DNA of 32,573 nucleotides from Nitrospira sp. (GCA_016873615.1 VGWX01000023.1:1-32573); one strand, 5' to 3'. Counted from the first letter of the stretch, positions 10,445-32,573 are shown. Notes: a model not told the origin generated them from the letters alone. Numbers and translations are program-made.

Positions 10445-10450
10445 TAGATA

Positions 10451-10511
10451 GGGTTCAAGGGTTCAAGTGAAAGTAACACACGAATCCTTGACCTCTTGAA
10501 CCCTTGAACCC
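10451..10511 (+). repeat. Intergenic tandem-unit hairpin A (acsE-acsD)
   Basis: A perfect 17-bp inverted repeat (10451-10467 and 10495-10511) in which each arm is two copies of an 8-bp unit (GGGTTCAA GGGTTCAA G). The loop is 27 nt. The right arm ends about 11 nt before the acsD ribosome site. There is no T-tract, so it is not a classical terminator. Confidence 0.9.
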
Positions 10512-10531
10512 TTAATTTCAGAGGAGGAGAC

Positions 10532-11479: not shown

Positions 11480-11523
11480 GACTGAGGTTGAGGCTAAGTT
11501 TTTCTTAACCTTAACCTTAACCT
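11473..11523 (+). repeat. Intergenic tandem-unit hairpin B (acsD-acsC)
   Basis: The left arm is four hexamer units of the GGTTGA/GACTGA/GGCTAA type (11474-11498, including the acsD stop). The right arm is three perfect TTAACC hexamers (11504-11523). They pair imperfectly with G-U wobbles across a short T-rich loop. The right arm ends about 9 nt before the acsC ribosome site. Confidence 0.8.
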
Positions 11524-11543
11524 GATATTTTCGGAGGTTTATA

Positions 11544-12887
11544 ATGGCTTTAACCGGCGTAGAAATATTCAAACTCCTGCCAAAGACAAATTGTAAGAAA
11601 TGCGGCTTCCCTACCTGCCTTGCCTTTGCTATGAAACTTGCTCAGAGACAGGCAACTCTTGACGCATGTCCTGATGTCTCTGAAGAGGCAAAACAGAAAC
11701 TCGGCGCGGCCTCAGCTCCACCTGTAAGACCAATTATCATGGGGACAGGTGAGAAGGCAGTCAAACTCGGGGAAGAGACAGTGCTTTTCAGGCATGACAA
11801 GCGATTTGTCAATCCGTGTGTTTTTGCGCTTGAGATACAGGATACGCTCCCGGATTCTGAAATCGATCTTAAGATTAAGGAGGTTCTTGATTCTGAGATT
11901 GACAGGGTAGGTCAGAAGCTGAGGATTGATGCAATTGCACTGAAGAATACTTCAAATGACACAGGCAGATTTGAGTCTCTTGCAAAAACTGTTGCGGCAA
12001 AGGCGCCTGAAGTCCCTGTTATTATATGCGCGACAAACCCCCGGTCTGCCGAGACCGCAGCAGTAGTATTCTCAAACAAGAAACCGGTCATTTACGGAGT
12101 GAATTCAGAAAATGCAGAAGCAATGACAGGCATTGCAAAGACATATAAAACAGCGCTCGGTATTATGGCAAAGGGGCTGGATGAACTTGCTAACCTTACT
12201 GAGAAAATCAAATCACTCGGTGTTGAAGATATAATAATGGATTCCGGTGCAAGGAAGGCGAAGGAAATTTTAGAGCACAATACATTAATCAGGAGAGCTG
12301 CTATCAAGAAGAATTTTAAGCCCCTCGGATATCCGGTGATAACTTTTGCACAGCGTGAAGACAGTCTTGTTGAATCACTCATTGCATCCATAGGCGTCGC
12401 AAAATATTCTTCAATAGTTGTCCTTAGCAGCATAGAAAAATGGAAGAATCTTTCTCTGTTCACCTTAAGGCAGAATATCTACACAGACCCCCAGGTGCCG
12501 ATGCAGGTCGAGCAAAAGATATATAAGATAGGAGAACCGAATCCGGAATCGCCGCTCATGATCACAACAAACTTCTCACTTACATATTTTATCGTCTCAG
12601 GAGAGATTGAAAACAGCAGGGTACCGGGTTATCTCGCTGTTATGGACTGCGAAGGCCTGTCTGTGCTTACAGCATGGGCAGCAGGGAAATTTACAGCATC
12701 AAAGATTGCACAATTTATTAAAGAAAGCGGGGTAGAGAGCAATATAAAACACCGGGAGCTTATTATCCCTGGTTATGTTTCGATACTGAGCGGAGCAATA
12801 GAAGATAAACTCGATGGATGGAAGATAACAGTCGGGCCCAGGGAGGCAAACGGATTGCCTGCATTCCTGAAATCAAGGGCAGCATAA
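11544..12887 (+). CDS. acsC: Corrinoid/iron-sulfur protein, large subunit (CODH/ACS gamma)
   Basis: A 447-aa subunit that holds the cobamide and a low-potential [4Fe-4S] cluster used to reactivate Co(II). The N-terminal cluster ligands are C17, C20, C25 and C42 (NCKKCGFPTCLAFAMK ... DACPD). They are followed by a TIM-barrel domain (about 90-320) and the C-terminal corrinoid-binding domain (about 325-447), with MITTNFSLTYFIVSGEIE and the ending WKITVGPREANGLPAFLK that is typical of the family. The length is normal (about 445 aa). A GGAGGTT ribosome site precedes the ATG. Together with AcsD it would shuttle methyl groups from AcsE to AcsB. Confidence 0.96.
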   Translation: MALTGVEIFKLLPKTNCKKCGFPTCLAFAMKLAQRQATLDACPDVSEEAKQKLGAASAPPVRPIIMGTGEKAVKLGEETVLFRHDKRFVNPCVFALEIQDTLPDSEIDLKIKEVLDSEIDRVGQKLRIDAIALKNTSNDTGRFESLAKTVAAKAPEVPVIICATNPRSAETAAVVFSNKKPVIYGVNSENAEAMTGIAKTYKTALGIMAKGLDELANLTEKIKSLGVEDIIMDSGARKAKEILEHNTLIRRAAIKKNFKPLGYPVITFAQREDSLVESLIASIGVAKYSSIVVLSSIEKWKNLSLFTLRQNIYTDPQVPMQVEQKIYKIGEPNPESPLMITTNFSLTYFIVSGEIENSRVPGYLAVMDCEGLSVLTAWAAGKFTASKIAQFIKESGVESNIKHRELIIPGYVSILSGAIEDKLDGWKITVGPREANGLPAFLKSRAA

Positions 12888-12893
12888 AATAAA

Positions 12894-12943
12894 GTAGACA
12901 GTAGGTTGTAGACAGTAAACAGCATTTCCTGTCTACTGTTTGC
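12894..12943 (+). repeat. Intergenic tandem-unit hairpin C (acsC-acsB)
   Basis: GTAGACAGTA occurs twice (12894-12903 and 12908-12917, 14-bp period) and is followed by a right arm CTGTCTACTGTTTGC (12929-12943) that can pair with either copy. The pairing is imperfect, with transitions. It starts 7 nt after the acsC stop and fills the space up to about 14 nt before the acsB ribosome site. Confidence 0.75.
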
Positions 12944-12967
12944 TATCCACTAAATGAGGAGGTTGGG

Positions 12968-15166
12968 ATGTCTAAGTTAATAGCCTCAGCTGCTATAAGA
13001 GGCGCACATAAACTTGTAATACAGGCTGAAGAAATGCTTGAAAAGGCTATTACTGAAAAGGGTGGAGGTTTTCCTTTTGAATTCCCTGATACAGCATATT
13101 ATCTTCCCATGATATATGCCATGACTGGTTTTCCTGTAAAGACACTGTCAGATATGAAAGTCGCGCTCGGGATGGCAAAGGAGTTACTTTATGCAGAACC
13201 TGAAGAACACCTCTGGAAACCTTATTTAGGTGAGGCGCTTGATTCCGGCATGGCAGCGCTTTTTGCTGAAGAAATTATTATGGCATTACGCTATATCAAT
13301 GGACTTGAGCCGGTTGTAGATCCTGAAACAGGGTATGTCTATAATGGTTTTATTACAGATACTATTCAGAGGAATTTAGGCATCCAGCTTGTTGACGGGA
13401 CAATGCCTGGTTTTGCTGCGGTCATCGGAGCAGCGCCTGATGACGATACTGCAGTAAAGATAATAAGAGAACTCCAGGAGAAGAATATCCTTACCTTCCT
13501 CTCAGGCCACACCAATGGTAATAGTGTAACGAAACAGCTTCAGAGAAAAGGTGTTGAACTGGGCTGGGATACGAGAATCGTTCCTCTTGGCTATGATACA
13601 GAACATACACTTTATGCCCTTGATTGGGCAATAAGGGCATCACTTATTTTTGGAGGCAAAAAACCGGGAGATTTTAAGGAGCATCTAAAGTACCAAAAAG
13701 ACAGGGTCTTTGCATTTGCAATTGCCCTTGGAGATTTAGACGACATTAAATGGTCAACAGGAGCCGGCGCTATAAATATGGGGTTCCCTGCTATTTGTGA
13801 TACGGATGTGCCGGTCATACATCCGACCGGTGTATGTATATATGAAGAGGTTGACAAAGAGTTTGACCATAATAAGATTGTACAGAAGGCGATTGAAGTC
13901 AGAGGTTTAAAAATTACTGTTGAGAAGCCTCCAATACCGGTTGCATACGGGCCTGCATTTGAAGGTGAGAGGATAAGAAAAGAAGACATGTTTATAGAAT
14001 TCGGCGGGAATCGTACACCTTCATTTGAATGGGTAAGGATGAGAGAAATGGAAGATATCGAGGATGGCAAAGTCACCGTGATTGGCAATAACTGGCAGGA
14101 ACAGTATGAGAAAGGCGGGAAGATGCCTTTGGCCATTGTCATTGATGTGGCAGGCAGAAAGATGCAGAAGGACTTCGAACCGGTTATGGAAAGAAAAGTC
14201 CATTCAAATATCAACGAGGCCCAGGGCATATGGCACATGGGGCAGCGTGATATAAACTGGATCAGAATAAACAATAACGCTAAGAAAGAAGGATTTAGTC
14301 TCGAGCACCTTGGAGTCATTAATGCAACTATGACTCACAGCAGGTTCAAATCAATTGTTGATAAAGTCCAGGTGACAATTTATACAGATGAAGAAGACGT
14401 CCTGAAACTCCAGGATGAGGCAAGGAAGTCATACAGGGAACGCGACCAGAGGCTTGCCGGTCTTATAGATGAGGCAGTCGACACATTCTATTCATGTCTA
14501 CTCTGCCAGTCTTTTGCGCCGAGTCATGTATGTGTAATAAGTCCCGAAAGACTCGGTCTTTGCGGGGCATTCAACTGGCTTGACTGTAAGGCTGCATTTG
14601 AAATAGATCCGACAGGCGGAAATCAGCCTATACAGAAAGGCGATCTTGTAGATACACGATATGGAAGATACACTGGCATTGATGAATATTTAAAAAAGGC
14701 ATCAGGTGGTGCAGTAGAAACACTGAACCTCTATACCATAATGGAAAATCCGATGACCTCTTGCGGTTGTTTTGAGTGCATTATTGCGATCGTTCCGGAA
14801 GCAAATGGGATAATGATAGTCCAGCGCGGCCATACCGGAATGACGCCTGTAGGGATGAAGTTTTCCACATTGGCGGGCAGTGTTGGCGGAGGCACTCAAA
14901 ACCCTGGATTCATGGGCATTGGCAGGAACTTTATTGTCAGCAAAAAGTTTCTCGCCGGTGACGGAGGAATCAAAAGGATTGTCTGGATGACAAAAAACCT
15001 TAAGGAAAGTCTTAAGGAAGAGTTCGACAAAAGGGCAGCAGAGGAAGGGGTTCCAGACCTTCTTGATAAAATTGCAGATGAGACAATCTGTGAGGATTCT
15101 GAAAAATTACTCGAATTCCTCTCAAGTGTCGGACACCCGGCGCTTGAGATGGAACCGATACTATAA
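12968..15166 (+). CDS. acsB: Acetyl-CoA synthase catalytic subunit
   Basis: A 732-aa nickel/iron-sulfur enzyme that joins CO, a methyl group from AcsCD and CoA into acetyl-CoA. It has the full bacterial length (Moorella: 729 aa), with the N-terminal CODH-docking domain that archaeal CdhC lacks. The A-cluster ligands are all present and sit at a constant offset of +4 from Moorella numbering: C510, C513, C522 and C532 for the [4Fe-4S] cubane and C599-G600-C601 for the distal nickel (SCGCFEC). Other landmarks are the GFPFEFPDTAYYLPMIYAMTG segment (in part) and the glycine-rich GSVGGGTQNPGFMGIG. The ribosome site GAGGAGG sits close before the ATG. It should form a complex with the CooS product of the next gene. 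Confidence 0.97.
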   Translation: MSKLIASAAIRGAHKLVIQAEEMLEKAITEKGGGFPFEFPDTAYYLPMIYAMTGFPVKTLSDMKVALGMAKELLYAEPEEHLWKPYLGEALDSGMAALFAEEIIMALRYINGLEPVVDPETGYVYNGFITDTIQRNLGIQLVDGTMPGFAAVIGAAPDDDTAVKIIRELQEKNILTFLSGHTNGNSVTKQLQRKGVELGWDTRIVPLGYDTEHTLYALDWAIRASLIFGGKKPGDFKEHLKYQKDRVFAFAIALGDLDDIKWSTGAGAINMGFPAICDTDVPVIHPTGVCIYEEVDKEFDHNKIVQKAIEVRGLKITVEKPPIPVAYGPAFEGERIRKEDMFIEFGGNRTPSFEWVRMREMEDIEDGKVTVIGNNWQEQYEKGGKMPLAIVIDVAGRKMQKDFEPVMERKVHSNINEAQGIWHMGQRDINWIRINNNAKKEGFSLEHLGVINATMTHSRFKSIVDKVQVTIYTDEEDVLKLQDEARKSYRERDQRLAGLIDEAVDTFYSCLLCQSFAPSHVCVISPERLGLCGAFNWLDCKAAFEIDPTGGNQPIQKGDLVDTRYGRYTGIDEYLKKASGGAVETLNLYTIMENPMTSCGCFECIIAIVPEANGIMIVQRGHTGMTPVGMKFSTLAGSVGGGTQNPGFMGIGRNFIVSKKFLAGDGGIKRIVWMTKNLKESLKEEFDKRAAEEGVPDLLDKIADETICEDSEKLLEFLSSVGHPALEMEPIL

Positions 15167-15174
15167 ATGAAACA

Positions 15175-15219
15175 AATCCCCCCATTCCCCCCTTTACTAA
15201 AGGGGGGTTAAGGGGGATT
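15175..15219 (+). repeat. Intergenic hairpin D, C/G-run type (acsB-cooS)
   Basis: A 21-bp inverted repeat with a short mismatch (left 15175-15195, right 15199-15219): AATCCCCCCATTCCCCCC pairs with GGGGGGTTAAGGGGGATT around a 3-nt loop. Similar C-run/G-run repeats occur dispersed in many bacterial genomes. It ends about 8 nt before the cooS ribosome site. Confidence 0.85.
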
Positions 15220-15235
15220 ATAGGTTGGAGGTTAT

Positions 15236-17221
15236 ATGGATAAGGTTATAAAAAGTGCAAATGAAGCTTCAGAGAAGATAATAGAGTGGAGTGAATCTCA
15301 GAAGATAGAAACATGCTTCGACAGAGCGCAGAAACTGAAACCGTGTCCTATCGGTGTTACAGGAGCGTGCTGCAAGATATGCCACATAGGACCATGCAGG
15401 TTTGTAGGGCAGAATGCAGAGGAGGAAGCGAGGGGTGTGTGCGGAGCAACACTACCTACAGTTGCATCAAGGAATTTCCTGAGAATGGCGGTGGCAGGGA
15501 CTGCAGCTCATTCAGATCACGCGAGGGATATGGCATTTACATTGCTTGCAGTTGCAAACGGAGAAACAAGCGATTTTAAGATAACTGATGTGAAAAAGCT
15601 TTACAAGATTGCAGGTATACTCGAAATAGAGTTTGAAGGCCGCACAGTCAATGATGTTGCGCGGGATGTTGCCATGAAACTGATTGAGGACTTTGGTCGT
15701 CAGAAGGGCGTGCTGAATTACATCAAAAGAGCTCCCCAAAAAACACAGGAAAGATGGAAAAAATGGGGCATAACCCCAAGAGGCATTGATAGAGAGATCG
15801 CAGAGGCAATGCACCGTACGAATATGGGCGTTGACCATGAACCGGATAACCTTCTTTTAAGCGCTCTTAAAGTTTCCCTTGCTGATGGCTGGGGCGGTTG
15901 CATGATTTCGACAGACATTACAGACATCCTTTTCGGAACTCCCAGACCGGTGAAGGCAGAGGCAAGTTTCGGGATATTCAAAGAAGACGAAGTCAACCTT
16001 GTAGTTCATGGACATGAGCCTACACTGGCAGAGATAATCGTCGATGTGGTTAATGAACCGGAGATGATCGAATATGCGAAATCAAAAGGCGCAAAAGGCA
16101 TCAATCTTGGGGGTATGTGTTGTACTGCAAATGAAGTCTTAATGAGGCATGGGATTCCAACAACAGGAGGTTTTACAAATCAGGAACTCGCAGTTTTAAC
16201 AGGACTTGTTGATGCAATAACAGTGGATGTTCAGTGCATAATGCCTGCATTAGCTGAACTTTCAAAAAAGTTCCATACAAAAGTGATTACAACATCGCAC
16301 AAGGCGAAAATGCCCGGAGCAACTCATATTGAATATGATGAGCACAAGGCAAGAGATATAGCAAGGCAGATCGTCAGACTGGCTATCGATAATTTCACGA
16401 ACAGGAAAAAAGAGGGCAGTCATATAACTGAAAAATTCCCTCTTATTGCCGGCTTTTCACATGAATATATAGAATACATGCAGGGTGGACGTTGGAGGGC
16501 CTCGTTCAGACCCCTGAATGATGCTATCATAGCGGGAAGGATTCGAGGCGTGGTTGGTCTTGCAGGCTGTGATAATCCAAGGGTCCCCTCACAGGGTCTT
16601 CATCGTTTTCTTGCGGTTGAATTGATTAAAAATGATGTGCTTATCGTCTCAACCGGATGTGGCTCGGCAGCATGCGGGACTGCCGGATATTTAACGCCTG
16701 AGATGGCGTTGGAAAATGCAGGCCCGGGATTACGGGAAGTTTGTGAGGCAATAGGCATTCCTCCAATCCTTCACCTTGGCGCATGTGTGGATAACTCAAG
16801 GATCCTGACAATTGCATCTGCTATGGCTGAAGAAGGCGGCCTCTCTGACGAGATAGGCGGCATGCCGGCGGTAGGCATTGCACCGGAGTGGATGTCTGAG
16901 AAGGCAATTGCTATCGGATGCTATTTTGCAGCCTCGGGCGTACCTGTTATCTTCGGAGGAGAATCTCCTGTTGCGGCGAGCGAAGAAGTGACCAGGATAA
17001 TGACAGAGGTCTGGCCTGAAAGGTTTAGGGGTGCGTTGCATTTCGAGCAAGACCCGGAGAAAATTCTCGAGCTTACTCTTAAATATATTGATATGGCAAG
17101 GGAAGCGCTGAAACTGAAAAAGTACGAGCCCGGCAAGTTCGGCGCTGAGAGGGTATTGATGGATATGGCAGCGCGTCGTGAAATAGAGAGGTCAGCAAAA
17201 CCTCATATCGGGATATATTAA
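15236..17221 (+). CDS. cooS: Ni,Fe carbon monoxide dehydrogenase catalytic subunit
   Basis: A 661-aa enzyme that interconverts CO2 and CO and supplies CO to the acetyl-CoA synthase (acsA when part of CODH/ACS). The N-terminus has the D- and B-cluster cysteines C37, C45, C46, C49, C54 and C69 with the family spacing. The C-cluster ligands are visible in order: the His of VVHGHEP, then Cys in LGGMCCTAN, DVQCIMPA, GLAGCDNPR, STGCGSAACG and LGACVDNSR. The length is normal. The GGAGGTT ribosome site defines the ATG. No CooC nickel-insertion ATPase is nearby, so maturation factors must be encoded elsewhere. Confidence 0.97.
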   Translation: MDKVIKSANEASEKIIEWSESQKIETCFDRAQKLKPCPIGVTGACCKICHIGPCRFVGQNAEEEARGVCGATLPTVASRNFLRMAVAGTAAHSDHARDMAFTLLAVANGETSDFKITDVKKLYKIAGILEIEFEGRTVNDVARDVAMKLIEDFGRQKGVLNYIKRAPQKTQERWKKWGITPRGIDREIAEAMHRTNMGVDHEPDNLLLSALKVSLADGWGGCMISTDITDILFGTPRPVKAEASFGIFKEDEVNLVVHGHEPTLAEIIVDVVNEPEMIEYAKSKGAKGINLGGMCCTANEVLMRHGIPTTGGFTNQELAVLTGLVDAITVDVQCIMPALAELSKKFHTKVITTSHKAKMPGATHIEYDEHKARDIARQIVRLAIDNFTNRKKEGSHITEKFPLIAGFSHEYIEYMQGGRWRASFRPLNDAIIAGRIRGVVGLAGCDNPRVPSQGLHRFLAVELIKNDVLIVSTGCGSAACGTAGYLTPEMALENAGPGLREVCEAIGIPPILHLGACVDNSRILTIASAMAEEGGLSDEIGGMPAVGIAPEWMSEKAIAIGCYFAASGVPVIFGGESPVAASEEVTRIMTEVWPERFRGALHFEQDPEKILELTLKYIDMAREALKLKKYEPGKFGAERVLMDMAARREIERSAKPHIGIY

Positions 17222-17222
17222 A

Positions 17223-17344
17223 GACAGGTAAAGGTATAGGTACAGAATAGAAGACAGGTAAAGGCAGAGAATGAAAAACAGGCGGAGGTATATGTATGAA
17301 AAGTCTTTTTCTGTACCTGTACCTCTACCTCTTCCTTCACCTGT
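17223..17344 (+). repeat. Intergenic tandem-unit hairpin E (cooS-nuoE)
   Basis: The left part contains hexamer-phased runs of AGGTNN (17223-17245, partly repeated at 17253 and near 17279). The right arm at 17311-17344 is the complement, made of ACCTNN/ACCTCT units. Pairing is imperfect. The element fills nearly all of the 140-bp gap and ends about 8 nt before the ribosome site of the next gene. Confidence 0.75.
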
Positions 17345-17361
17345 AGTTTTTTGGAGGATCG

Positions 17362-17850
17362 ATGAAAGTTGAAGAGATTGATATTGACGAACAGATAGGT
17401 GAAGTAGGCAGGATACTTGCAGATAAAGAGAAGAACCGGGGAGTATTAATACATGTTCTGCATCATATACAGGAAGACAATGGTTATTTGCCGGAAGACA
17501 TGTTAAGGAGACTTTCAAAAAACCTGAATATATCACTATCCGAAATTTATAGTGTGGCAAGTTTTTATAAAATGTTTCACTTTAAACCGAGGGGAAAAAA
17601 AGTAGTGAAGGTGTGTCTTGGCACAGCCTGTTATGTGAGGGGATCAAAGAAGCTTCTCACCTCACTCGAAGATAAGTTTAATGTCAAAAGCGGTGAAACT
17701 ACAGAAGACCTTGCAATGACTCTTGAAACAGTTGGATGTGTCGGTTGCTGCGGTCTTGCGCCTGTAGCTACAATCAATGAGGATGTTATCGGTGAAATAA
17801 CAGGAAGCAGGAAATTAGAGGGCTTAATCAGATCTATAAGAGAAGGTTAG
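17362..17850 (+). CDS. NuoE/HydC-like [2Fe-2S] subunit of an NAD(P)H oxidoreductase
   Basis: A 162-aa thioredoxin-like [2Fe-2S] protein of the NuoE family (also HndA, HydC, HoxE). The cluster ligands are C85 and C90 (VCLGTACYVRG) and C126 and C130 (VGCVGCCGLAPV), in the expected CX4C and CX3C arrangement. The N-terminal helical bundle includes VLHHIQEDNGYLPEDML and SEIYSVASFYKMFHFKPRG. A GGAGGATCG site precedes the ATG. The family passes electrons to or from the NuoF flavoprotein, encoded 37 nt downstream. The gene is separated from cooS by a hairpin element but reads in the same operon direction. Confidence 0.93.
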   Translation: MKVEEIDIDEQIGEVGRILADKEKNRGVLIHVLHHIQEDNGYLPEDMLRRLSKNLNISLSEIYSVASFYKMFHFKPRGKKVVKVCLGTACYVRGSKKLLTSLEDKFNVKSGETTEDLAMTLETVGCVGCCGLAPVATINEDVIGEITGSRKLEGLIRSIREG

Positions 17851-17887
17851 TTGCAGTCAGCACATGAAAACTGCTAAAGGAGATAGT

Positions 17888-20248
17888 ATGCTCATGGAGA
17901 GGTTAAACAATATACAAAAGCTCAAGAGTGTTGATGACCTTCTTGCTTTCAGAGAACTCCTATCAAAAGAAGGGGTTTTAGCTCCTGGTAAAAAGAGGAT
18001 AAGTGTTTGTTGTGGAACAGGATGTCGGGCGAATGGCTCTCTCAAATTAGCAGAGGAGTTTGAAAAGGGAATCAAAAGAAACGAGATGGATATTGAAATA
18101 GTAGAAACAGGCTGTCAGGGCCTATGCCAGAAAGGTCCTGTCATGAAGATAGAACCATATGGATATTTTTATCAGAAGGTAAAACAGAATAATATAAATG
18201 AGATTTTTTCCACCACATATTTGGCGAATGCCCCTGTGAGACATCTCCTCTATAAGGGTAGTTTTCTCGATAAGCCCGTTGAGATGATGGAAGACGTGCC
18301 TTTCTACAAAAAGCAGATGAGGATTGCACTCAGGCATAACGGGATCGTTGACCCAACTAATATTTATCATTATATTGCTATTGGTGGTTACAAAGCTGCT
18401 GAACATGTGTTCACCTCCATGGACTCTGAAAAGGTGATTGAAGAAATAAAGAAGGCTAATCTCAGAGGCAGGGGGGGTGCTGGATTTCCTGCCGGCGTGA
18501 AATGGGCACACTCAAAGAGAGCCCGTGGTAAGATTAGGATGGTCATAGCGAATGGCGATGAGGGCGACCCAGGCGCTTTTATGGACAGGTCGATCATGGA
18601 AGGCGACCCCCACAGTCTGCTCGAAGGGATGCTTATCTGTGCCTATGCAATCGATGCTCATTATGGATTTATCTATGTCCGTCATGAATATCCGCTTGCT
18701 GTCAGGAATTTGAAAATAGCTATCGAACAGGCGGAAAAAATAGGCTTGTTAGGTAAAAACATCCTTGGAACCGGTTTTGATTTCACAGTTCATATCAGAG
18801 AAGGAGCAGGCGCTTTTGTTTGTGGAGAGGCAACGGCGCTTGTCGCTTCATTAGAAGGTAAAAGAGGTTTTCCTCACGCAAGACCTCCGAGAGTGTCGGA
18901 ACCAGGTGGGGGCCCGTGGGGTTATCCGGCTAATTTGAACAATGTAGAGACCTATGCGTGCGTTCCCCCGATAATTGAAAAAGGCGCAGACTGGTTCCTG
19001 AGCATCGGAACAGAAACATCACCTGGCACAAAGGTATTTGCCCTGACAGGAAAAGTTAATAATACAGGGCTTGTTGAGGTTCCCATGGGAATTACCCTGA
19101 GGGAGATCATATTCGATATCGGCGGAGGAATCATGGGGCAAAAGAAATTCAAGGCTATACAGACAGGAGGACCTTCCGGCGGATGTATACCGGAGCAGTA
19201 TCTTGATCTGCCTGTGGATTTCGATTCTCTCCGGAAGGTTGGATCCATCATGGGTTCCGGTGGCATGGTTGTTATGGATGAAGACAACTGCATGGTTGAT
19301 ATAGCCAAATTCTTCCTTTCTTTTACACAGGCAGAGTCATGTGGAAAGTGTCCGCCATGCAGGATCGGCACATACCGGATGCTGCAGATACTTGAAAAGA
19401 TAACCTCCGGCAACGGAGAAGAAGGCGACATAGAGAGGCTTGAACGTCTTGGGAAACTTGTCCAAACCGGATCTCTCTGTGGTCTTGGCCAGAGCGCGCC
19501 AAATCCTGTTCTCACAACGATTAAATATTTCCGTGAAGAATACGAAGAACATATTTATGACAAATACTGCAGGGCAAAAGTATGCAACCTTGGCATCTTT
19601 ATAATAAACCATGAGGAGTGCATACTTTGTGGACTGTGCAAGCAGGCATGTGCTTTCGATGCAGTAAAGGAGACGAGGAGGAGTTTCTTTATTGATCGTG
19701 ATTACTGTACACACTGCAAGGCGTGTTATAACGTCTGTCCTGTAAATGCAGTAAAGATAGTAAGGAGTCTGTATGAAAGACTTGAAGAAGAATTGAAGCT
19801 ACCCGCTGAAGGTTTAGAGGTCATTGAAAGGAGGCGCAGTATGACATTGAGGGATATTTTAGAATCAAGACCGTATGAGATTGTGAAGATTAACAGGAAT
19901 TGTCATATTTCGGATGCAGTGAGAATGATGAGCGAGAAGAATGTCAGCGGCATATTCGTAGTTGATGAGAATGACAAACTGGCAAGCATTTTTACAGAAA
20001 GAGATATCGTCCGCTGTGTTTTTAATAATATCCCTACAGACGAATATCTGAAAAATCTCGTAATGCGTGATATCGTAACCTTTGACCCGGCAACAGGAGT
20101 TAGTTCAGCAATATCTATTGCATCCAGAAAAAAGATCAGACATCTGCCGGTGGTTGAGGGCGACAAGATAATAGGTATGATTACATATAGAGACTTAGTC
20201 GCGTATCTGCTTCCGGAGATCTGTTTCATGGCAGAAACCATGTATTAA
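17888..20248 (+). CDS. NuoF/HydB-like FMN-NAD(H) subunit with ferredoxin and C-terminal CBS-pair domains
   Basis: A 786-aa soluble flavoprotein subunit. Domains in order: a thioredoxin-like [2Fe-2S] domain (about 36-85; CCGTGC, CQGLC), the NAD(H)/FMN core (about 190-390; RGRGGAGFPAGVKW, NGDEGDPGAFMDR, EGAGAFVCGEATAL), an SLBB domain, and the NuoF [4Fe-4S] domain (ESCGKCPPCRIGT near 483, then a fourth Cys in GSLCGLGQSAPNP). Next come two ferredoxin [4Fe-4S] motifs (CILCGLCKQAC near 578, CTHCKACYNVC near 607) and finally two CBS motifs (about 651-786; SGIFVVDENDKLASIFTERD, HLPVVEGDKIIGMITYRDL). The ferredoxin-tailed layout is known in HydB/HndC. The CBS pair is unusual and suggests adenylate sensing. 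The start is placed at 17888 because AAAGGAGAT lies 4 nt upstream; an ATG at 17864 has no ribosome site. Confidence 0.93.
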   Translation: MLMERLNNIQKLKSVDDLLAFRELLSKEGVLAPGKKRISVCCGTGCRANGSLKLAEEFEKGIKRNEMDIEIVETGCQGLCQKGPVMKIEPYGYFYQKVKQNNINEIFSTTYLANAPVRHLLYKGSFLDKPVEMMEDVPFYKKQMRIALRHNGIVDPTNIYHYIAIGGYKAAEHVFTSMDSEKVIEEIKKANLRGRGGAGFPAGVKWAHSKRARGKIRMVIANGDEGDPGAFMDRSIMEGDPHSLLEGMLICAYAIDAHYGFIYVRHEYPLAVRNLKIAIEQAEKIGLLGKNILGTGFDFTVHIREGAGAFVCGEATALVASLEGKRGFPHARPPRVSEPGGGPWGYPANLNNVETYACVPPIIEKGADWFLSIGTETSPGTKVFALTGKVNNTGLVEVPMGITLREIIFDIGGGIMGQKKFKAIQTGGPSGGCIPEQYLDLPVDFDSLRKVGSIMGSGGMVVMDEDNCMVDIAKFFLSFTQAESCGKCPPCRIGTYRMLQILEKITSGNGEEGDIERLERLGKLVQTGSLCGLGQSAPNPVLTTIKYFREEYEEHIYDKYCRAKVCNLGIFIINHEECILCGLCKQACAFDAVKETRRSFFIDRDYCTHCKACYNVCPVNAVKIVRSLYERLEEELKLPAEGLEVIERRRSMTLRDILESRPYEIVKINRNCHISDAVRMMSEKNVSGIFVVDENDKLASIFTERDIVRCVFNNIPTDEYLKNLVMRDIVTFDPATGVSSAISIASRKKIRHLPVVEGDKIIGMITYRDLVAYLLPEICFMAETMY

Positions 20249-20257
20249 AAAAGCAAA

Positions 20258-20313
20258 GAGCTATGAACTATGAGCTATGAGCTAAGAGCTATGAGCTAAG
20301 AGCTAAGAGCTCC
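20258..20313 (+). repeat. Eight-unit heptamer array F
   Basis: Eight head-to-tail 7-bp units (GAGCTAT, GAACTAT, GAGCTAT, GAGCTAA, GAGCTAT, GAGCTAA, GAGCTAA, GAGCTCC) fill the gap between the NuoF-like gene and the next gene. No complementary arm follows, although each unit contains the self-complementary AGCT. The unit GAGCTAA recurs in the array at 29462. Confidence 0.95.
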
Positions 20314-20330
20314 ACAGTTGGAGATGATTA

Positions 20331-20948
20331 ATGAGTGAAGAAATAGGGACAGAAGAAAAAGGAAAGAAACTCGAGGATATAAGAAAAGAGGCTGAAGAAA
20401 AGGCCTGTCCTGTTCAAAGGACTCTCTATTTTATTAAAGAGTTCATCGAAGGGCCGATGTGCAGTAAATGTTATCCCTGTTCGCTCGGCACTGGAGAGGC
20501 GAAGATCAGATTAATCAGGATCAGCCAGCATTTGAAGAATGTCGATGGGGCGGATATTCAGGTGTTAAAAAGAATAGGATTAAATATGATAGAGGGCTCA
20601 TTCTGTAAAAAAGGGAAAGATACGGGCAAGTTTATTCTCGAGGCGCTTGCCAATTCAGAAGGAGAATTCAGACAACATCTTTCCGGTATTTGTCCCAAAA
20701 AAGAATGTGCAAGCCTTGTTGAATATGCAATCAATCCTGAACTGTGTATCATGTGCGGTAAATGTTCAGAGGTATGTCAGTACGGCGCTATAACAGGTGA
20801 AAAGAAGCAACCTTATCTTTCTGGATATATTCCTTTTGAGATACGGCAAAAGAGATGCACAAAGTGCGGTGAGTGTATTGCAGTTTGTCCCACAGTGGCA
20901 ATAGAGGTTACAACAATACAAAAAGAGGAATTGGTCGGTAAAGAATAA
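20331..20948 (+). CDS. Stand-alone Fe-S protein resembling the NuoF C-terminal region
   Basis: A 205-aa cytoplasmic electron-transfer protein. Residues 44-92 carry C44, C47, C50 and C92 (MCSKCYPCSLGT ... GSFCKKG), the arrangement of the NuoF N3 [4Fe-4S] domain. After it come two ferredoxin clusters, C139/C142/C145/C149 (CIMCGKCSEVC) and C176/C179/C182/C186 (CTKCGECIAVC). The protein is thus a copy of the C-terminal half of the preceding NuoF-like subunit without the NAD/FMN core or CBS domains. It may be a separate electron-exit or ferredoxin-docking subunit. A GGAG site precedes the ATG. It is 24 nt from the NuoG-like gene, so the two are likely co-translated. Confidence 0.85.
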   Translation: MSEEIGTEEKGKKLEDIRKEAEEKACPVQRTLYFIKEFIEGPMCSKCYPCSLGTGEAKIRLIRISQHLKNVDGADIQVLKRIGLNMIEGSFCKKGKDTGKFILEALANSEGEFRQHLSGICPKKECASLVEYAINPELCIMCGKCSEVCQYGAITGEKKQPYLSGYIPFEIRQKRCTKCGECIAVCPTVAIEVTTIQKEELVGKE

Positions 20949-20972
20949 CTGTATGATATGGAGGAGGTTTGA

Positions 20973-23027
20973 ATGGAGAAACTGGTTAAACTCCAAATAG
21001 ACGGGATAGAGATTAAAGCGCCGGCGGGCATGAATCTCATAGATGCAGCGGAGCGTGCAGGAATTCATATACCAAATCTCTGTTACCTCAAAGGGATAAA
21101 AAGTATTGGTGCGTGCAGGCTTTGCCTCGTTGAGGTTGAAGGACTGAAGGCTCCTGTTATAGCATGCAATACCAGAGTCAAAGAAGGTTTAGTTGTCAAT
21201 ACGAAGACTGATAAGATACAGGAAGTCAGAAAATTTGTTATCGATCTTATACTTTCAATGCACCCGCTCGACTGCATGACGTGTACAAAGGCAGGGGTTT
21301 GCAACCTTCAGAAATATGCATATGATTTTGAGCTTAAGGAATCATCTTTTACAAGGAAAAAGTTCGGGTACCCCGTTGACGAAACAAATCCCTTTATCAG
21401 GAGAGACCCGGATTACTGTATCCTCTGCAGCAGATGTGTCAGGGTATGCAAGGAGCAGGATACAAATGTCCTTGAATTTATGGGAAGGGGCATTGAGTCA
21501 AAGGTTCTCACTGCAAACGGCAGACCGCTGCAGGAATCTGAATGCACTTTCTGCGGAAGCTGTGTTGACGCATGCCCTGTCAATGCGCTTCTTGAATCAG
21601 ACAGATGGCGCAAGGGGAGAGAATGGGAGTACGAGAAAGTAAATTCCACATGTCTTCTCTGCGGAAACAGTTGTGATATAACAGTAAGCACGAAAGACGG
21701 CAGGATACAGAAGATTAATTCAGGCGCAGCAGCGGATTCTGCTGAAAAATATCTCTGCGCCTATGGCAGGTTCGGCTTTGACTCTATTGAGGCAGAGTCG
21801 AGGCTTACAGTTCCCATGAAAAGGATAGAAGGTGGACTCCAGGAGACTACCTGGGAAGATGCACTTACCATAGTTGCTGATAAACTCAGGAAGGCCGGTA
21901 AAGAAGCAGGTTTTATAAGCGTTGCAGGCATAGAAAACGAAGATGCGCTGATATTAAAAAAGATAGCTAAAAACATTGTCAAAACAAAAAACTATGATAC
22001 AACAATAAGTCTGTATGGAGATAGTGAGTCTTTCAGGAACTCTCAAAAAGCAGATATTGATAAGGCTGACCTTATTATGCTTGTTGACCTTAACCCCTCA
22101 CAATGGGATAGGGTTTTGCCTGCTCTCGATGCATCTGTGAGAAGGAGGGTTAACAGGGGAGCAAAACTCATTATCATTAATTCATCTGATACAAAAATAG
22201 AAGAGGTCGCAGCAGTAACTCTCAAAGGAAATGTCACATCCGGTCTGAAAGGTATTGCAAAGGCTTTAACAGGAAAAGGATTAAAGGCAGACAAGAAGAT
22301 CTCTGCTGCTGTGAAAGATGAAGAGATTAGCGAAGATATTGAAAAGGCAGCAACCCTTATTGCTGAAGCTAATGAACCCTTAATATTATCTTCTCCTTCC
22401 ATGTTTGAGGCTTCGGCCAATATTGCACTGATAAAAGGAAAAGTGATATCTGTCGGGCTTGAAAGCAATGTGCGCGGTGTCGTATTGATGGGTCTGACAA
22501 CCGAAGGTAAAACGTATAAAGAGATGGCCGGCATAGAATCGGGGAAAGGGCAAGGCGCAAAGAGCGCTGTTAAAGTCCTTTATGCAGTTGGGGAAGCGCC
22601 ATTGCAGGCAAGGCCTGAGGGACTTGAATTTCTTATTGTGCAGAACTCACATCTTACTGACCTTGCAAGGCAGGCTGATATTGTTCTGCCTTCAGCAACA
22701 TTCCTCGAAGCTGCCGGCACTATAGTTGATTACATGGGAAGGCTGAAATATTTGCCCAAAGTAATAGAGCCTCAGGAAGAATCAAAAAGCCACAGAGAGA
22801 TTTTCATCGCTCTTGCGAAGACAATGGGCACGAAAATAAAACTGCCCACAGAGGCTGAGGTTAATAAGGCAGTGAAAGTGAAGACCAAGCTCTCATTCAA
22901 CCCCTTTGAAAAAAGGGAAGGCATCGATATTTCAGCTGCTGAATTCATAGAATCCATCAATGCATCGGTTATCAAGGGTTCAAGACTCTTATGGCTCAAA
23001 GAGGCTGAAAAAACCGTGTCAGTTTAA
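20973..23027 (+). CDS. NuoG-like iron-sulfur/molybdopterin-fold subunit
   Basis: A 684-aa protein of the NuoG family. The N-terminal [2Fe-2S] ligands are C37, C48, C51 and C65. They are followed by the His/Cys [4Fe-4S] motif (HPLDCMTCTKAGVCNLQ), two ferredoxin clusters (CILCSRCVRVCK and CTFCGSCVDACPVN) and the extra cluster CLLCGNSCDI ... YLCAYG at the start of the molybdopterin-oxidoreductase fold. The catalytic Cys/Sec region of formate dehydrogenases is not seen and the fold is short, so it is probably a non-catalytic electron wire as in complex I or HoxU/NuoG-type hydrogenase complexes. The ribosome site GGAGGAGG is strong. It is the last gene of the operon. Confidence 0.92.
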   Translation: MEKLVKLQIDGIEIKAPAGMNLIDAAERAGIHIPNLCYLKGIKSIGACRLCLVEVEGLKAPVIACNTRVKEGLVVNTKTDKIQEVRKFVIDLILSMHPLDCMTCTKAGVCNLQKYAYDFELKESSFTRKKFGYPVDETNPFIRRDPDYCILCSRCVRVCKEQDTNVLEFMGRGIESKVLTANGRPLQESECTFCGSCVDACPVNALLESDRWRKGREWEYEKVNSTCLLCGNSCDITVSTKDGRIQKINSGAAADSAEKYLCAYGRFGFDSIEAESRLTVPMKRIEGGLQETTWEDALTIVADKLRKAGKEAGFISVAGIENEDALILKKIAKNIVKTKNYDTTISLYGDSESFRNSQKADIDKADLIMLVDLNPSQWDRVLPALDASVRRRVNRGAKLIIINSSDTKIEEVAAVTLKGNVTSGLKGIAKALTGKGLKADKKISAAVKDEEISEDIEKAATLIAEANEPLILSSPSMFEASANIALIKGKVISVGLESNVRGVVLMGLTTEGKTYKEMAGIESGKGQGAKSAVKVLYAVGEAPLQARPEGLEFLIVQNSHLTDLARQADIVLPSATFLEAAGTIVDYMGRLKYLPKVIEPQEESKSHREIFIALAKTMGTKIKLPTEAEVNKAVKVKTKLSFNPFEKREGIDISAAEFIESINASVIKGSRLLWLKEAEKTVSV

Positions 23028-28447: not shown

Positions 28448-29464
28448 ATGCAAAAAAAGAAAAGACTTATAATCAATATTCTGTTTCTATGTCCATTATT
28501 TATTATTTTATACTCAGGTATTTGTATCGCTGAAGTGGGCGGAGACTGTGATTCGTGCCATGCCCTTTATCCGGGGATGACTGAAAAACCTTCGCTTGTT
28601 AAACCCTTCACATATGTCAACAGAGAAGTCTTCTGCATAAACTGCCATTCGCATAATACCAGCGATACCATAAAAATTATCGGCGGAAATAAAGTGCCGG
28701 TGGTTTTCAATAACATAAAACCGGTTTATCCTTTGGCCGGCGGGAATTTTCATTATGTTGCCAAAGATTTCGGAGACAGGAAAGGACATAATGTGAGTGG
28801 CATAACTTCCATTGATTCAAAGTTCAGGGGATATCCGCCGGGTTACAACAGGTCATTTGATCCATCAAATAAGGGTTATAATCCTGGAAAACCGCTTGCG
28901 TGTGCGGGTTCAAACGGCTGCCATGGCAACAGGGATATCGAGGATCCTTTTGAGGCTATTTACGGGGCCCATCATGCGGTCGATAAGCCTGTTGACGGGA
29001 GTACAACAGCGAGAAGTTACCGTTACCTGAAAAATACCGATAGAGTAAAAGGTGTTACAGGTCTTGAAGATTCTGAATGGAACTGGAATGGAACTTCAAG
29101 CAGACATAACGAATATTCTTCTTCTGTTGATGTATTCTGCGAAAGCTGTCACGGAGATTTCCATAATAAAAACAAGAAAGGAAAAAACGGGTCATGGTTC
29201 AGGCATCCGACAGGGATGCCCTTGCCAGACAAAGGGGAATATGCTGCTTATAGCATATACAATCTTGATGCGCCTGTCTCAAGGGAGAGCCTTCCATTGA
29301 AACCGAGCGATGTGGTTATGGGTGGAAAAGACGCTGTGACCTGTCTTTCATGCCATGCAGCGCATTCAAGCCCCTATGATTCTGCTCTGAGGTGGGATTA
29401 TGACAATATTTTTACAGGTGAGGAAGGAAAAAGCGGTTGTCTTATATGTCATACAGGGAAATAG
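28448..29464 (+). CDS. Hexahaem c-type cytochrome, OmcS-like (paralogue 1)
   Basis: A 338-aa secreted cytochrome with a Sec signal peptide (basic MQKKKR, hydrophobic core, cleavage near residue 28). Haem motifs in order are CDSCH (34-38), CINCH, a non-standard CAGSNGCH, CESCH, CLSCH and CLICH, so five CXXCH plus one CX5CH. Shared landmarks with its two paralogues are GAHHA, HNEY, ESCHGDFH, RHPTG, CLSCHAAH and the final ICHTGK. The order, including the ECH-x-x-H, RHP and CLSCHxAH segments, matches OmcS of Geobacter. Of the three it has the least typical first haem region (ALYPGM instead of TMHNS). Extracellular electron transfer is the inferred role. It is driven by a sigma54-type promoter, and its 3' end overlaps the next gene. 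Confidence 0.9.
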   Translation: MQKKKRLIINILFLCPLFIILYSGICIAEVGGDCDSCHALYPGMTEKPSLVKPFTYVNREVFCINCHSHNTSDTIKIIGGNKVPVVFNNIKPVYPLAGGNFHYVAKDFGDRKGHNVSGITSIDSKFRGYPPGYNRSFDPSNKGYNPGKPLACAGSNGCHGNRDIEDPFEAIYGAHHAVDKPVDGSTTARSYRYLKNTDRVKGVTGLEDSEWNWNGTSSRHNEYSSSVDVFCESCHGDFHNKNKKGKNGSWFRHPTGMPLPDKGEYAAYSIYNLDAPVSRESLPLKPSDVVMGGKDAVTCLSCHAAHSSPYDSALRWDYDNIFTGEEGKSGCLICHTGK

Positions 29465-30582
29465 CTAAGAGCCAAGAGCCAAGAGCTAAGAGCCAAGGAG
29501 CAAGGGTTTTCTATATTTTACTCTTTGCTCTTTGCTCTATGCTCTTTGCTTCTGCTGTTGATGCAAGGGTAAAAGGGAAATGCAAAGATTGCCATAGCAT
29601 GCATTACAGTTATGAGGGAAAGGAAATGACTTATGGAGGTCGCCATGGGCCATTCCCCGCGCTGACACAGGGCGGCTGTATCGGCTGTCATGGCCAGGCT
29701 CCTAACGGCACGAAAAGCATCATCACCAATGGCAAAACCAGGATTCCACAGGTACTGCATTATCCGGTGAACGATAATCTGGCCGGCGGGAATTTTTATT
29801 ACGTTGCAGACGAGTATAATCCTGATTATTCAAAGGGCCATAATATTAAAGGCATTTCAAGGCAGGAAAACCCGCCGATGGATGTCCCGCCCGGGTTTAT
29901 GAATAGCATACTGATACCGGGTGGAACAGGTCCTGCATATTGGCCGGGTCAGCAGCAGCTTGCCTGTGCCGGCACCTGGGGTTGCCATGGCAACAGAACA
30001 ATAGAAGACCCCGGCAGTTCCATTCATGGCGCGCACCATGCTGATGACAGTATCATCGATGGATCGACAGCGGGAAAAAGTTATCGATTTCTTTACGGAA
30101 TAACCGGAAAAGAGCATAAGGATTGGGAATACATGGCTACTGTCAATAACCACAATGGATATAAAGGAAGCATAGATCATGCTGCTATGGACACCATAAG
30201 TTATCTCTGCGGAGAATGTCATGCAAAATTCCATCCCAGCCCGAATCTCGGAGGCAGCAAAGAAGTCGGACATGCTTACAATTCGATATGGCGCAGACAT
30301 CCTTCTGATATTTCCTTTGCATCTGTACATGGCGGTTTTGCAGGTTCTGAGTATCAGGGGTATGTTACGTACAGTCTCGAAGCTCCTGTTGCTTTCAGCA
30401 ATCCCACAGGTGCAGAAGATATTGTTAATTCAGACAGTGTAATTATGTGTCTTTCCTGTCACAGGGCTCACGCAGGCAGACATCCTGATATTTTAAGATG
30501 GGACTATTCTAAAATAACTGCCGGCGCCGGCAAGTCAGGCACAGGCTGTCTCGCCTGCCATACAAGGAAGGGGCATGAGTGA
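29446..30582 (+). CDS. Hexahaem c-type cytochrome, OmcS-like (paralogue 2)
   Basis: A 378-aa secreted cytochrome. Haem motifs in order are CKDCH, CIGCH, CAGTWGCH (CX5CH), CGECH, CLSCH and CLACH. It shares PQVLHYP, LAGGNFYYV, GHNIKG, GAHHADDS, HNGY, RHPSD and CLSCHRAHA with its neighbours. The start is uncertain. ATG 29446 gives a 19-nt overlap with paralogue 1 and a long basic n-region before the hydrophobic core (VFYILLFALCSMLFASAVDA); an upstream TTG at 29437 is also in frame and no good ribosome site is seen. The n-region and the core are both encoded by the heptamer repeat element at 29462-29555, which is odd. It is probably co-transcribed with paralogue 1. Confidence 0.88.
   Translation: MSYREIAKSQEPRAKSQGARVFYILLFALCSMLFASAVDARVKGKCKDCHSMHYSYEGKEMTYGGRHGPFPALTQGGCIGCHGQAPNGTKSIITNGKTRIPQVLHYPVNDNLAGGNFYYVADEYNPDYSKGHNIKGISRQENPPMDVPPGFMNSILIPGGTGPAYWPGQQQLACAGTWGCHGNRTIEDPGSSIHGAHHADDSIIDGSTAGKSYRFLYGITGKEHKDWEYMATVNNHNGYKGSIDHAAMDTISYLCGECHAKFHPSPNLGGSKEVGHAYNSIWRRHPSDISFASVHGGFAGSEYQGYVTYSLEAPVAFSNPTGAEDIVNSDSVIMCLSCHRAHAGRHPDILRWDYSKITAGAGKSGTGCLACHTRKGHE
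29462..29555 (+). repeat. Heptamer hairpin G overlapping the start of cytochrome 2
   Basis: The left arm is about six 7-bp units (TAGCTAA, GAGCCAA, GAGCCAA, GAGCTAA, GAGCCAA, GGAGCAA), starting at the cytochrome 1 stop codon. The right arm is five units (CTCTTTG, CTCTTTG, CTCTATG, CTCTTTG, CTTCTGC; 29521-29555) complementary in phase. They pair imperfectly over an AT-rich loop. The right arm codes for the LLFALCSMLFAS core of the next signal peptide. Confidence 0.9.
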
Positions 30583-30649
30583 AGCCTGAAATAAAGCGTC
30601 ATATCATTGCATTGCATTGCTTTCGATAATCCGGAAACTACATTTAAGA

Positions 30650-30843
30650 AACCACAGAGGTCACAGAAACAAATATAATAATTTTAAAACTTCCTTATTT
30701 TCAGATACTTCTCTGAGTTCTCTGTATAAATATTTCTTAGAAATTATAAATCAATTTTTGCATGAAAGAGTGCACAGAGAAAGAGCCTGAAATCTGCTTT
30801 TTTTCTTACTTAATAATTACATTCCTCTGTGCACTCTGTGGTT
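30650..30843. repeat. CACAGAG-type long inverted repeat H
   Basis: The outer arms AACCACAGAGGTCACAGA (30650-30667) and CCTCTGTGCACTCTGTGGTT (30824-30843) are near-complements, each with two CACAGA-like units. An inner pair (TTCTCTGAGTTCTCTGT near 30710 and GCACAGAGAAAG near 30772) nests inside. Similar ACCACAGAG repeats are known as dispersed elements in various bacterial genomes. Confidence 0.8.
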
Positions 30844-31045
30844 AATTGCATTATCGATACCGACAAATATATTCCATAAGCCCCTGCCGGTCTCAATCAT
30901 TCTCATATTAGAAAAAAACGATTCTCATATCTGAAAAACAAAAACAAGCTTCTGTTAAATCTGAAAACAGGCATTAAGACAGCCTGTTCAAAATTAATCA
31001 AATGATAATAAAAGTTGACTTTTATGGTTTTTGGGCATTAATATA

Positions 31046-31061
31046 ATTAGCATAAGCTAAT
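31046..31061. promoter_or_regulatory. Candidate enhancer palindrome for a sigma54 activator (cytochrome 3)
   Basis: ATTAGC-ATAA-GCTAAT is a perfect 6-bp inverted repeat. It lies 42 bp before the -24 element, centred about 75 bp before the predicted start site. The similar site at 28271 precedes the other sigma54-type promoter. Confidence 0.5.
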
Positions 31062-31102
31062 AAAATTTATGTGTTTTGAACGGCTGTAACTTTATTATTT
31101 AC

Positions 31103-31118
31103 TGGCATAAAGATTGCT
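31103..31118 (+). promoter_or_regulatory. Sigma54-type -24/-12 promoter of cytochrome 3
   Basis: TGGCATAAAGATTGCT matches TGGCA-N6-TTGC(A/T), with GG (31104-31105) and GC (31116-31117) exactly 10 bp apart. Transcription would start near 31129 and leave a leader of about 190 nt. Confidence 0.7.
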
Positions 31119-31182
31119 TATTTATTATTTATTTATAAAATGCATTTTAACAGGTCCGGTAAAGCTTATTTTACAAGAACTG

Positions 31183-31230
31183 AGGTATTAAGCAAAAAGT
31201 AATTAGAGGTATTAAGCAAAAAGTAATTAA
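31183..31230 (+). repeat. 24-bp tandem duplication in the cytochrome 3 leader
   Basis: Units 31183-31206 and 31207-31230 (AGGTATTAAGCAAAAAGTAA plus four bases) are identical except for the last base. They lie downstream of the predicted start site and so in the mRNA leader. Confidence 0.95.
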
Positions 31231-31319
31231 AGGATAGTAACAGCTATGAATCATGTAGCTGAAATTCTGAAGGTTTTGTTTTCAATGTAAAAATTCAAAA
31301 AGAAAGGAGGTGAAAAGAG

Positions 31320-32444
31320 ATGAAAAAGACACTGATTGCAGGTCTTGTAACTTTATTTGCACTCACTCTGATTTCAAGTTCAGCTCATGCCGTTGTTCAG
31401 GGTGCATGTGTGAATTGCCACACGATGCATAACAGCCAGGGCAATGCTCCAATGAACTGGGATAGCAGTGCAACCCCCAACGAAGCCTTATTGAGAGGCA
31501 GCTGCATTGGTTGTCATGGACAAGCGCCATCGGGAGCAAACAATATCATAACCAACATTCCTCAGGTACTGCACAATGCTGCAACGGATCTCGCTGGTGG
31601 TAATTTTGCCTATATAACAACTTCTTCCAAGCGTGATGCTGCGGACTCAGGCGCCACACAAAACTCTGTTGGGCACAATGTTATTGATCTCGGTGGTGCT
31701 TATCAGGAAATCATTTTAACATCCCCGCCTGGTGACGAAAACACTACAGGAATAACAAACACTAACTTTACGTGCGGAGGCGTGAGAGGATGTCATGGGG
31801 ATCGTACACAGACAGGTTCATATGCTGCTGTAAGAGGCGCTCATCATGCGAATGACAGTGTTCTTAAATTCGGCACTATTAGTGAAGCTGGACAGGGTGG
31901 TACTACAGCCCTTAGCTACAGGTTCCTGAAAGGCGTAAAAGGTGGAGAAGTTAGCAACTGGCAAAACACTAACGCAACCAATCACAATGAATACAAGGGA
32001 GCAACATCTCGCGGTGCAGAAAGTACAGCAACAACCCCGGGTGGTGGAACTATCAGCGGGCTGTGCGCTGAATGTCATGGAGACTTTCATGGCACAGGCA
32101 GTGGTGATATAGGCACTGCTTCTCCATGGCTGAGACATCCTACGGATATTGTTCTGCCAAGTGACACTGCAAAAGAATATTATCTGTACAATGGCGGCGC
32201 AGGTTCTGATAACCCGTACAGCGTTGATGCACCTGTTGCAAGGGCGACTATCCCTAATGCTATAAGTGGCGTTGTAAACCCCGGAACAGATGATTCCATT
32301 GTCATGTGTCTCTCCTGTCATGGCGCTCATGCAACTAAGAATGCGGACATCCTCAGATGGAACTACTCGACGATCAATGCAGGCGGCGGCAGCAATGCTA
32401 CGCGTTGCTTTATCTGCCACACAACAAAGGATACAGGCTCATAA
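31320..32444 (+). CDS. Hexahaem c-type cytochrome, OmcS-like (paralogue 3)
   Basis: A 374-aa secreted cytochrome with a clean Sec signal peptide (MKKTLIAGLVTLFALTLISS, cleavage after SAHA). Haem motifs in order are CVNCH (followed by TMHNS, as in OmcS), CIGCH, CGGVRGCH (CX5CH), CAECH (GDFH), CLSCH (GAHA) and CFICH. Extra histidines for axial ligation are in VLHNA, GHNVI, GAHHAND, NHNEY, DFH and LRHPTD. The length is close to that of OmcS (about 400 aa, six haems). The ribosome site AAGGAGGTGA is ideal and the leader is long, so this is probably the most highly expressed of the three. It has its own sigma54-type promoter. Polymerisation into filaments is inferred from similarity, not shown. 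Confidence 0.92.
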   Translation: MKKTLIAGLVTLFALTLISSSAHAVVQGACVNCHTMHNSQGNAPMNWDSSATPNEALLRGSCIGCHGQAPSGANNIITNIPQVLHNAATDLAGGNFAYITTSSKRDAADSGATQNSVGHNVIDLGGAYQEIILTSPPGDENTTGITNTNFTCGGVRGCHGDRTQTGSYAAVRGAHHANDSVLKFGTISEAGQGGTTALSYRFLKGVKGGEVSNWQNTNATNHNEYKGATSRGAESTATTPGGGTISGLCAECHGDFHGTGSGDIGTASPWLRHPTDIVLPSDTAKEYYLYNGGAGSDNPYSVDAPVARATIPNAISGVVNPGTDDSIVMCLSCHGAHATKNADILRWNYSTINAGGGSNATRCFICHTTKDTGS

Positions 32445-32463
32445 TGTTCGTAACTTTTTTCAT

Positions 32464-32490
32464 GGGAGGGAATTTTACAAGTTCCCTCCC
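32464..32490 (+). terminator. Hairpin after cytochrome 3
   Basis: GGGAGGGAA (32464-32472) and TTCCCTCCC (32482-32490) form a perfect 9-bp stem with a 9-nt loop, 20 nt after the stop codon. The downstream GTCTTACTCT is only moderately T-rich, so it may be a weak terminator or a 3'-end stabilising hairpin. Confidence 0.6.
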
Positions 32491-32573
32491 GTCTTACTCT
32501 GAAGGATGAAAGACTTTTTGAAAAGCGGCCGTAAAGGAAAAGTAATTTGTAGAGTGTGAAACAAAGAATGATA

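Follow-up and report, generated by a model that had tools for sequence, protein, structure and literature searches.

The window analysed here, a stretch of 32,573 nucleotides, ends in three tandem genes (P1, P2 and P3) for hexahaem cytochromes of a family that shares its predicted fold with the filament protein OmcS. The first of the three, P1, consistently has Tyr or Phe in place of a His that is retained in P2, P3 and most of the family. We consider it reasonably probable that P2 and P3 are filament subunits, that P1 is an end or conduit-adapter subunit, and that the locus as a whole serves electron export.

Three cytochrome genes at the end of the window

The genes, their haem-1 and haem-3 motifs and the flanking features are as follows (window coordinates unless a contig is given).

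28448..29464, plus strand: gene P1, OmcS-like hexahaem cytochrome, predicted secreted; the OmcS His16 equivalent is Tyr
28547..28570, plus strand: P1 haem-1 motif CDSCHALY, with Tyr in place of the His16 equivalent
28901..28924, plus strand: P1 haem-3 motif CAGSNGCH (CX5CH)
29437..30582, plus strand: gene P2, OmcS-like hexahaem cytochrome; start uncertain (TTG 29437 or ATG 29446)
29581..29604, plus strand: P2 haem-1 motif CKDCHSMH, His16-equivalent His present
29965..29988, plus strand: P2 haem-3 motif CAGTWGCH (CX5CH)
31320..32444, plus strand: gene P3, OmcS-like hexahaem cytochrome with signal peptide; ribosome-binding site AGGAGGTG upstream
31407..31430, plus strand: P3 haem-1 motif CVNCHTMH, in which the His16-equivalent His is H37
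31773..31796, plus strand: P3 haem-3 motif CGGVRGCH (CX5CH)
32445..32573, no strand: contig end, 129 bp after P3; an NHL-propeller gene stands here in related genomes
G000:C2:71462-72337, minus strand: truncated NHL gene at the C2 contig end; the remaining cluster genes and family member L003 come after it

The N termini of all three proteins have a hydrophobic stretch of the signal-peptide type, and the proteins would be exported c-type cytochromes encoded at the 5′ end of a locus of roughly 25 kb. Each carries five CxxCH motifs and, at the third site, one CX5CH. Because shuffled sequences average about 0.02 CxxCH (means of 0.015–0.027, maximum 2, 5,000 shuffles), the clustering of five in each protein is not due to chance. 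Above the cut-offs in NCBIfam and Pfam the proteins match only the general doubled-CXXCH domain, with the addition of cytochrome c7 for P3.

A first-pass annotation had given each protein six haem-type motifs in the order and context of OmcS. Order and contexts hold, but the CX5CH at site 3 of P1, P2 and P3 rules out six CxxCH motifs per protein. The haem-1 context CxxCHTMHNS is that of P3 (CVNCHTMHNS), whereas P1 reads CDSCHALYPG. At haem 4 the CxxCH, an additional His and a subsequent RHP are present as described, except that the His lies four residues past the motif His (CHGDFH) and does not form CHxxH. The CLSCHxAH of haem 5 and the C-terminal CxxCH as last motif are both present in the translated ORFs.

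Heptamer repeats occupy the P1/P2 junction (29460–29555) and blur the start codon of P2. They also occur in the window at 20252–20311, between two genes downstream of CODH subunits, and in locus L085 at 12082–13461 and 15577–16977. AGAGCCA-type heptamers are followed by TTTGCTC-type heptamers, giving an imperfect inverted repeat, and the repeats seem to encode SQEPRAKSQ-like N termini in other genes of the same genome. About 90 bp upstream of P3 lies a perfect 24-bp tandem repeat, GAGGTATTAAGCAAAAAGTAATTA, in two copies (31182–31229), which could be a regulator site.

A family sister to OmcS with an altered haem-3 site

The genome that contains the window (2.9 Mb in 216 contigs) has five family members: P1, P2, P3, L003 (contig C2) and L004 (contig C1). 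The three same-strand ORFs form the tandem array originally described, but the array is part of this larger set and its cluster resumes on another contig. Searching a genome collection yielded 79 loci, and 126 distinct proteins were gathered from all of them. The MAG record labels of these loci span Nitrospirota, Desulfobacterota and related groups, Deferribacterota, Aquificota and others; one locus is labelled Heimdallarchaeota and may be contamination.

When a profile built from 99 family sequences was run against the PDB, OmcS (6EF8) scored E 1.2e-27; the next matches, nitrite reductases, reached 4e-4. A single-sequence phmmer search with P3 gave no PDB match, and only the family profile found OmcS. 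AlphaFold2 models computed with no templates (pLDDT 81 and pTM 0.80 for P3, pLDDT 84 and pTM 0.80 for P1) were compared with OmcS using VIA-align 2, giving Z 14.4 and 4.2 Å over 273 residues at 26% identity for P3, and Z 17.4 and 3.8 Å over 259 residues for P1, for which the next chain was OmcE at 3.9. Foldseek retrieved OmcS with the P1 model at E 1.5e-4; with the P3 model OmcS was not among the matches at E ≤ 10. The first-pass comparison with OmcS was therefore right, and the predicted folds, on whose failure to superpose it was to be abandoned, do superpose.

The resemblance to Geobacter sulfurreducens OmcS covers nearly the whole chain of the predicted fold and extends to the order of the six haem sites, and the CxxCHTMHNS, GHN, RHP and CLSCHRAH contexts are common to both. 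The proteins are nevertheless not OmcS itself. A search for OmcS in 146 genomes from the class of Malonomonas rubra found relatives in 35, and the retrieved relatives have CxSCHxPH[GS] at haem 3 (CxSCHDPHG, with CSSCH, in OmcS), as opposed to CX5CH in P1, P2 and P3. Six non-motif His are conserved in OmcS orthologues, one near the N terminus and the others at 16, 110, 147, 257 and 335. Counterparts of four (H16, H110, H257 and H335) are conserved in the window family, that of H16 being absent from P1. The N-terminal His and H147 have no counterpart, and GAHH, HN and FH are conserved instead, the invariant GAHH and HN His being new relative to OmcS. In the tree, one clade (support 96) unites the CX5CH rows and another (support 100) the OmcS orthologues; the window family sits on a long branch. 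The OmcS haem-3 pattern, the N-terminal His and a place inside the OmcS clade are all absent from the window proteins. Judged by sequence, they are a family of the OmcS-type fold in a sister clade, not OmcS orthologues. Some relatives have seven CxxCH motifs (L063 4251–5345, L072 2661–3785, L020 9193–10275 and L064 8197–9333), which suggests heptahaem versions of the OmcS fold.

Across the 99 family rows, haem 3 keeps its second Cys and its His without exception (99/99), and the position of the first Cys gives CX5CH in 76 and CxxCH in 23. Since the CX5CH rows form one clade, the three-residue insertion probably arose once. The site very likely still binds haem, because the corresponding site reads CxxCH in sister proteins, L003 and L004 among them; from sequence only, the five CxxCH and the CX5CH have enough conserved His for bis-His ligation. 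An additional synthase devoted to CX5CH is not supported: a single ResB-type synthase component occurs in the genome (contig C15), suggesting that no second synthase is needed. In several genomes, by inspection, a ResB/CcsA-like cytochrome c synthase pair and a 7- or 12-haem gene follow OmcS-like genes (L129 876–5263, L010, L011 and L067). A literature search for CX5CH turned up no open paper, although the motif may nonetheless have been described. A CX5CH where sister proteins have CxxCH would be a clean case for studying c-type haem maturation.

Conserved neighbours and published cassettes

In five related genomes (G011, G005, G012, G003 and G008), P1, P2 and P3 are followed by an NHL propeller, a propeller lipoprotein and a predicted outer-membrane barrel, and then by three CsgG/LpoB/GNA1162-like lipoproteins, a PPIase, and 26-haem and 16-haem cytochromes. 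Where the locus reaches beyond the 16-haem gene, another OmcS-like paralogue and a 7/8-haem gene come next. This gene order is unbroken in G011 and G005 and contiguous up to the locus cut in G012, G003 and G008. In the genome studied here an assembly break probably hides the rest of the locus. The junction between the window's contig (C23) and C2 is drawn from gene order, no sequence overlap joining them having been found at the contig ends.

The same neighbour genes recur around family members in many phyla, lending support to the earlier proposal of an extracellular electron-transfer locus. The 26-haem and 16-haem cytochromes and the β-barrel probably constitute a trans-outer-membrane conduit; the barrel-like protein matches no family, and the 16-haem and 26-haem genes lie beside OmcS-like genes. 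The SurA-like PPIase and the CsgG/LpoB-like lipoproteins are putative folding or export helpers, and the locus also has two β-propellers. The three small lipoprotein-like genes, with weak similarity to CsgG, LpoB and GNA1162, are a fixed part of the locus in related genomes (L085 16971–19472; L120 12164–14564) and could possibly encode filament export or anchoring parts.

The concept of a nanowire cassette is already known, since Murali et al. describe cassettes in sulfate reducers that carry OmcX, OmcS-like and Apc2a genes (PMC10553843), and a second study reports OmcS genes called by FeGenie in Thermodesulfovibrionia MAGs (PMC8478452). The oetABI cassettes of the former resemble the window-type locus in setting OmcS-like cytochromes beside a porin–cytochrome conduit in sulfate reducers, and our genome has dsrA. 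They differ in that Desulfobacterota are treated, and a P1-like Tyr/Phe version was not found in the part of that source available to us (PMC10553843). The name OetABI would apply to the window-type conduit by analogy, and any one of the names OmcX, OmcS-like and Apc2a may apply to the window proteins. The Thermodesulfovibrionia MAGs belong to the same broad lineage, and our locus L018 bears the label of DeMMO, the site of that study; by contrast with the present analysis, its accessible part gives OmcS presence only, with no motif, cluster or paralogue analysis found there (PMC8478452).

Loss of the His16 equivalent in P1

Orthologues of P1, at 59–66% identity, occur in 10 of the 20 genomes searched, our own included, and two more were added from named Nitrospirae records. 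At the OmcS His16 position, all 11 aligned P1 orthologues have Tyr or Phe and all 50 other aligned members have His (Fisher p 2e-12, a value that ignores shared ancestry, P1 being one clade). That clade has a support of 100 in the tree and its own signature, CxxCHxL[YF]PG. Family-wide, 94 of 99 members retain the His; outside P1 it is also absent from L013 and from the P2 of L024, which looks shortened there. Two second-in-tandem OmcS relatives, L155 and L156, likewise have no His at this position. P1 retains the CLSCHxAH of haem 5 and lies immediately before P2 in the nine same-family regions that we read, the window's among them.

The ligand that passes between OmcS subunits is reportedly His16, as Wang et al. 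are said to have described in Cell in 2019, and its acceptor is presumably the haem of His332. One of the 12 axial His ligands in OmcS, that at haem 505, is supplied by the neighbouring subunit (PMC6584659). Of the three genes earlier described as an OmcS-like nanowire set, P2 and P3 keep the His16 equivalent, whereas P1 and its orthologues lack it.

In our proposal P2 and P3 most likely form an OmcS-type filament by head-to-tail assembly, and the His that follows haem 1 (H37 in P3) would ligate haem 5 of the adjoining subunit. If His16 is the donor, P1 can accept the His of a neighbour but cannot donate one, and would therefore lie at one filament end. With its haem-5 accepting end kept and Tyr or Phe for the donor His, it would likeliest terminate the filament at its haem-1 end, acting as a cap or as an adapter to the cell-surface conduit, and electrons would pass to an extracellular acceptor. 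Because the locus occurs without any P1 in other lineages, a P1-like cap would not be generally needed. The narrower claim, that in Nitrospirota-type loci P1 is a dedicated end subunit created by exchange of a ligand for Tyr or Phe, together with a CX5CH fixed once in the clade, is tentative and in our view doubtful. If it is true, the wire ends in, or joins the conduit through, a haem-1 face unable to dock another subunit. None of the papers that we read explains how cytochrome nanowires begin, terminate or connect to an outer-membrane conduit, and P1, first in the operon with fold and accepting end kept and donor His lost, would be a direct handle on wire ends.

The complete loss of the His among P1 orthologues, and their separate, conserved clade with its own signature, could also mean that P1 has left the filament role altogether and is not an end piece, being instead a specialised cytochrome that is soluble or bound to the conduit, or having a redox-catalytic site. 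This is a serious possibility, though we think the balance lies against it: the haem-5 acceptor motif, the fold and the remaining ligands are kept, and P1 directly precedes P2 wherever the region was read. Alternatively, P1, P2 and P3 might all be non-polymerising extracellular or periplasmic electron carriers, serving the conduit as monomers or short oligomers and sharing only their fold with OmcS. Besides the His16 equivalent, seven non-motif His are conserved in the family; with six haems to serve, they could ligate haem 5 from inside the subunit and no neighbour would be required; the two distal His missing relative to OmcS (N-terminal and H147) are also in keeping with such carriers. We nevertheless judge this unlikely, because persistence of the His16 equivalent across phyla would be unexpected if it had no role, and because the locus has export or folding helpers and a conduit, as PMC10553843 proposes for filament cassettes.

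A specific tie to carbon metabolism, with the cytochromes acting as an electron sink or source for the Wood–Ljungdahl pathway, is very improbable. The CODH/ACS cluster (9662–23027) does lie about 5.4 kb upstream of P1, the distance on which the first-pass annotation had built, but this closeness carries little weight; the conserved partners flank the cytochrome genes on the opposite side. In between are scpA, a hydrolase and a DUF4143 ATPase on mixed strands, and among related genomes, in 20-kb views, only G008 has a CODH-cluster homologue (a 684-aa Fe–S/molybdopterin protein), and G011 shows only the hydrolase and scpA. We accordingly rejected a functional CODH/ACS link as the main point of the locus. 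The presence of dsrA, together with DsrMKJOP and Hmc genes read by inspection only, is fitting for a sulfur-cycle anaerobe with the Wood–Ljungdahl pathway. Judging from the closest named loci, the host probably belongs to Nitrospirota, near Thermodesulfovibrionia.

The same genome has a second multihaem cluster on contig C10 (L087 10109–19263), with two 12-haem genes, one 11-haem gene and one 7-haem gene, an unclassified 648-aa protein, perhaps a barrel, and a NiFe-hydrogenase small-subunit gene nearby. At 2028–2681, close to the window's opposite end, lies a gene for an AbiEii-type nucleotidyltransferase of the type IV toxin–antitoxin toxin family.
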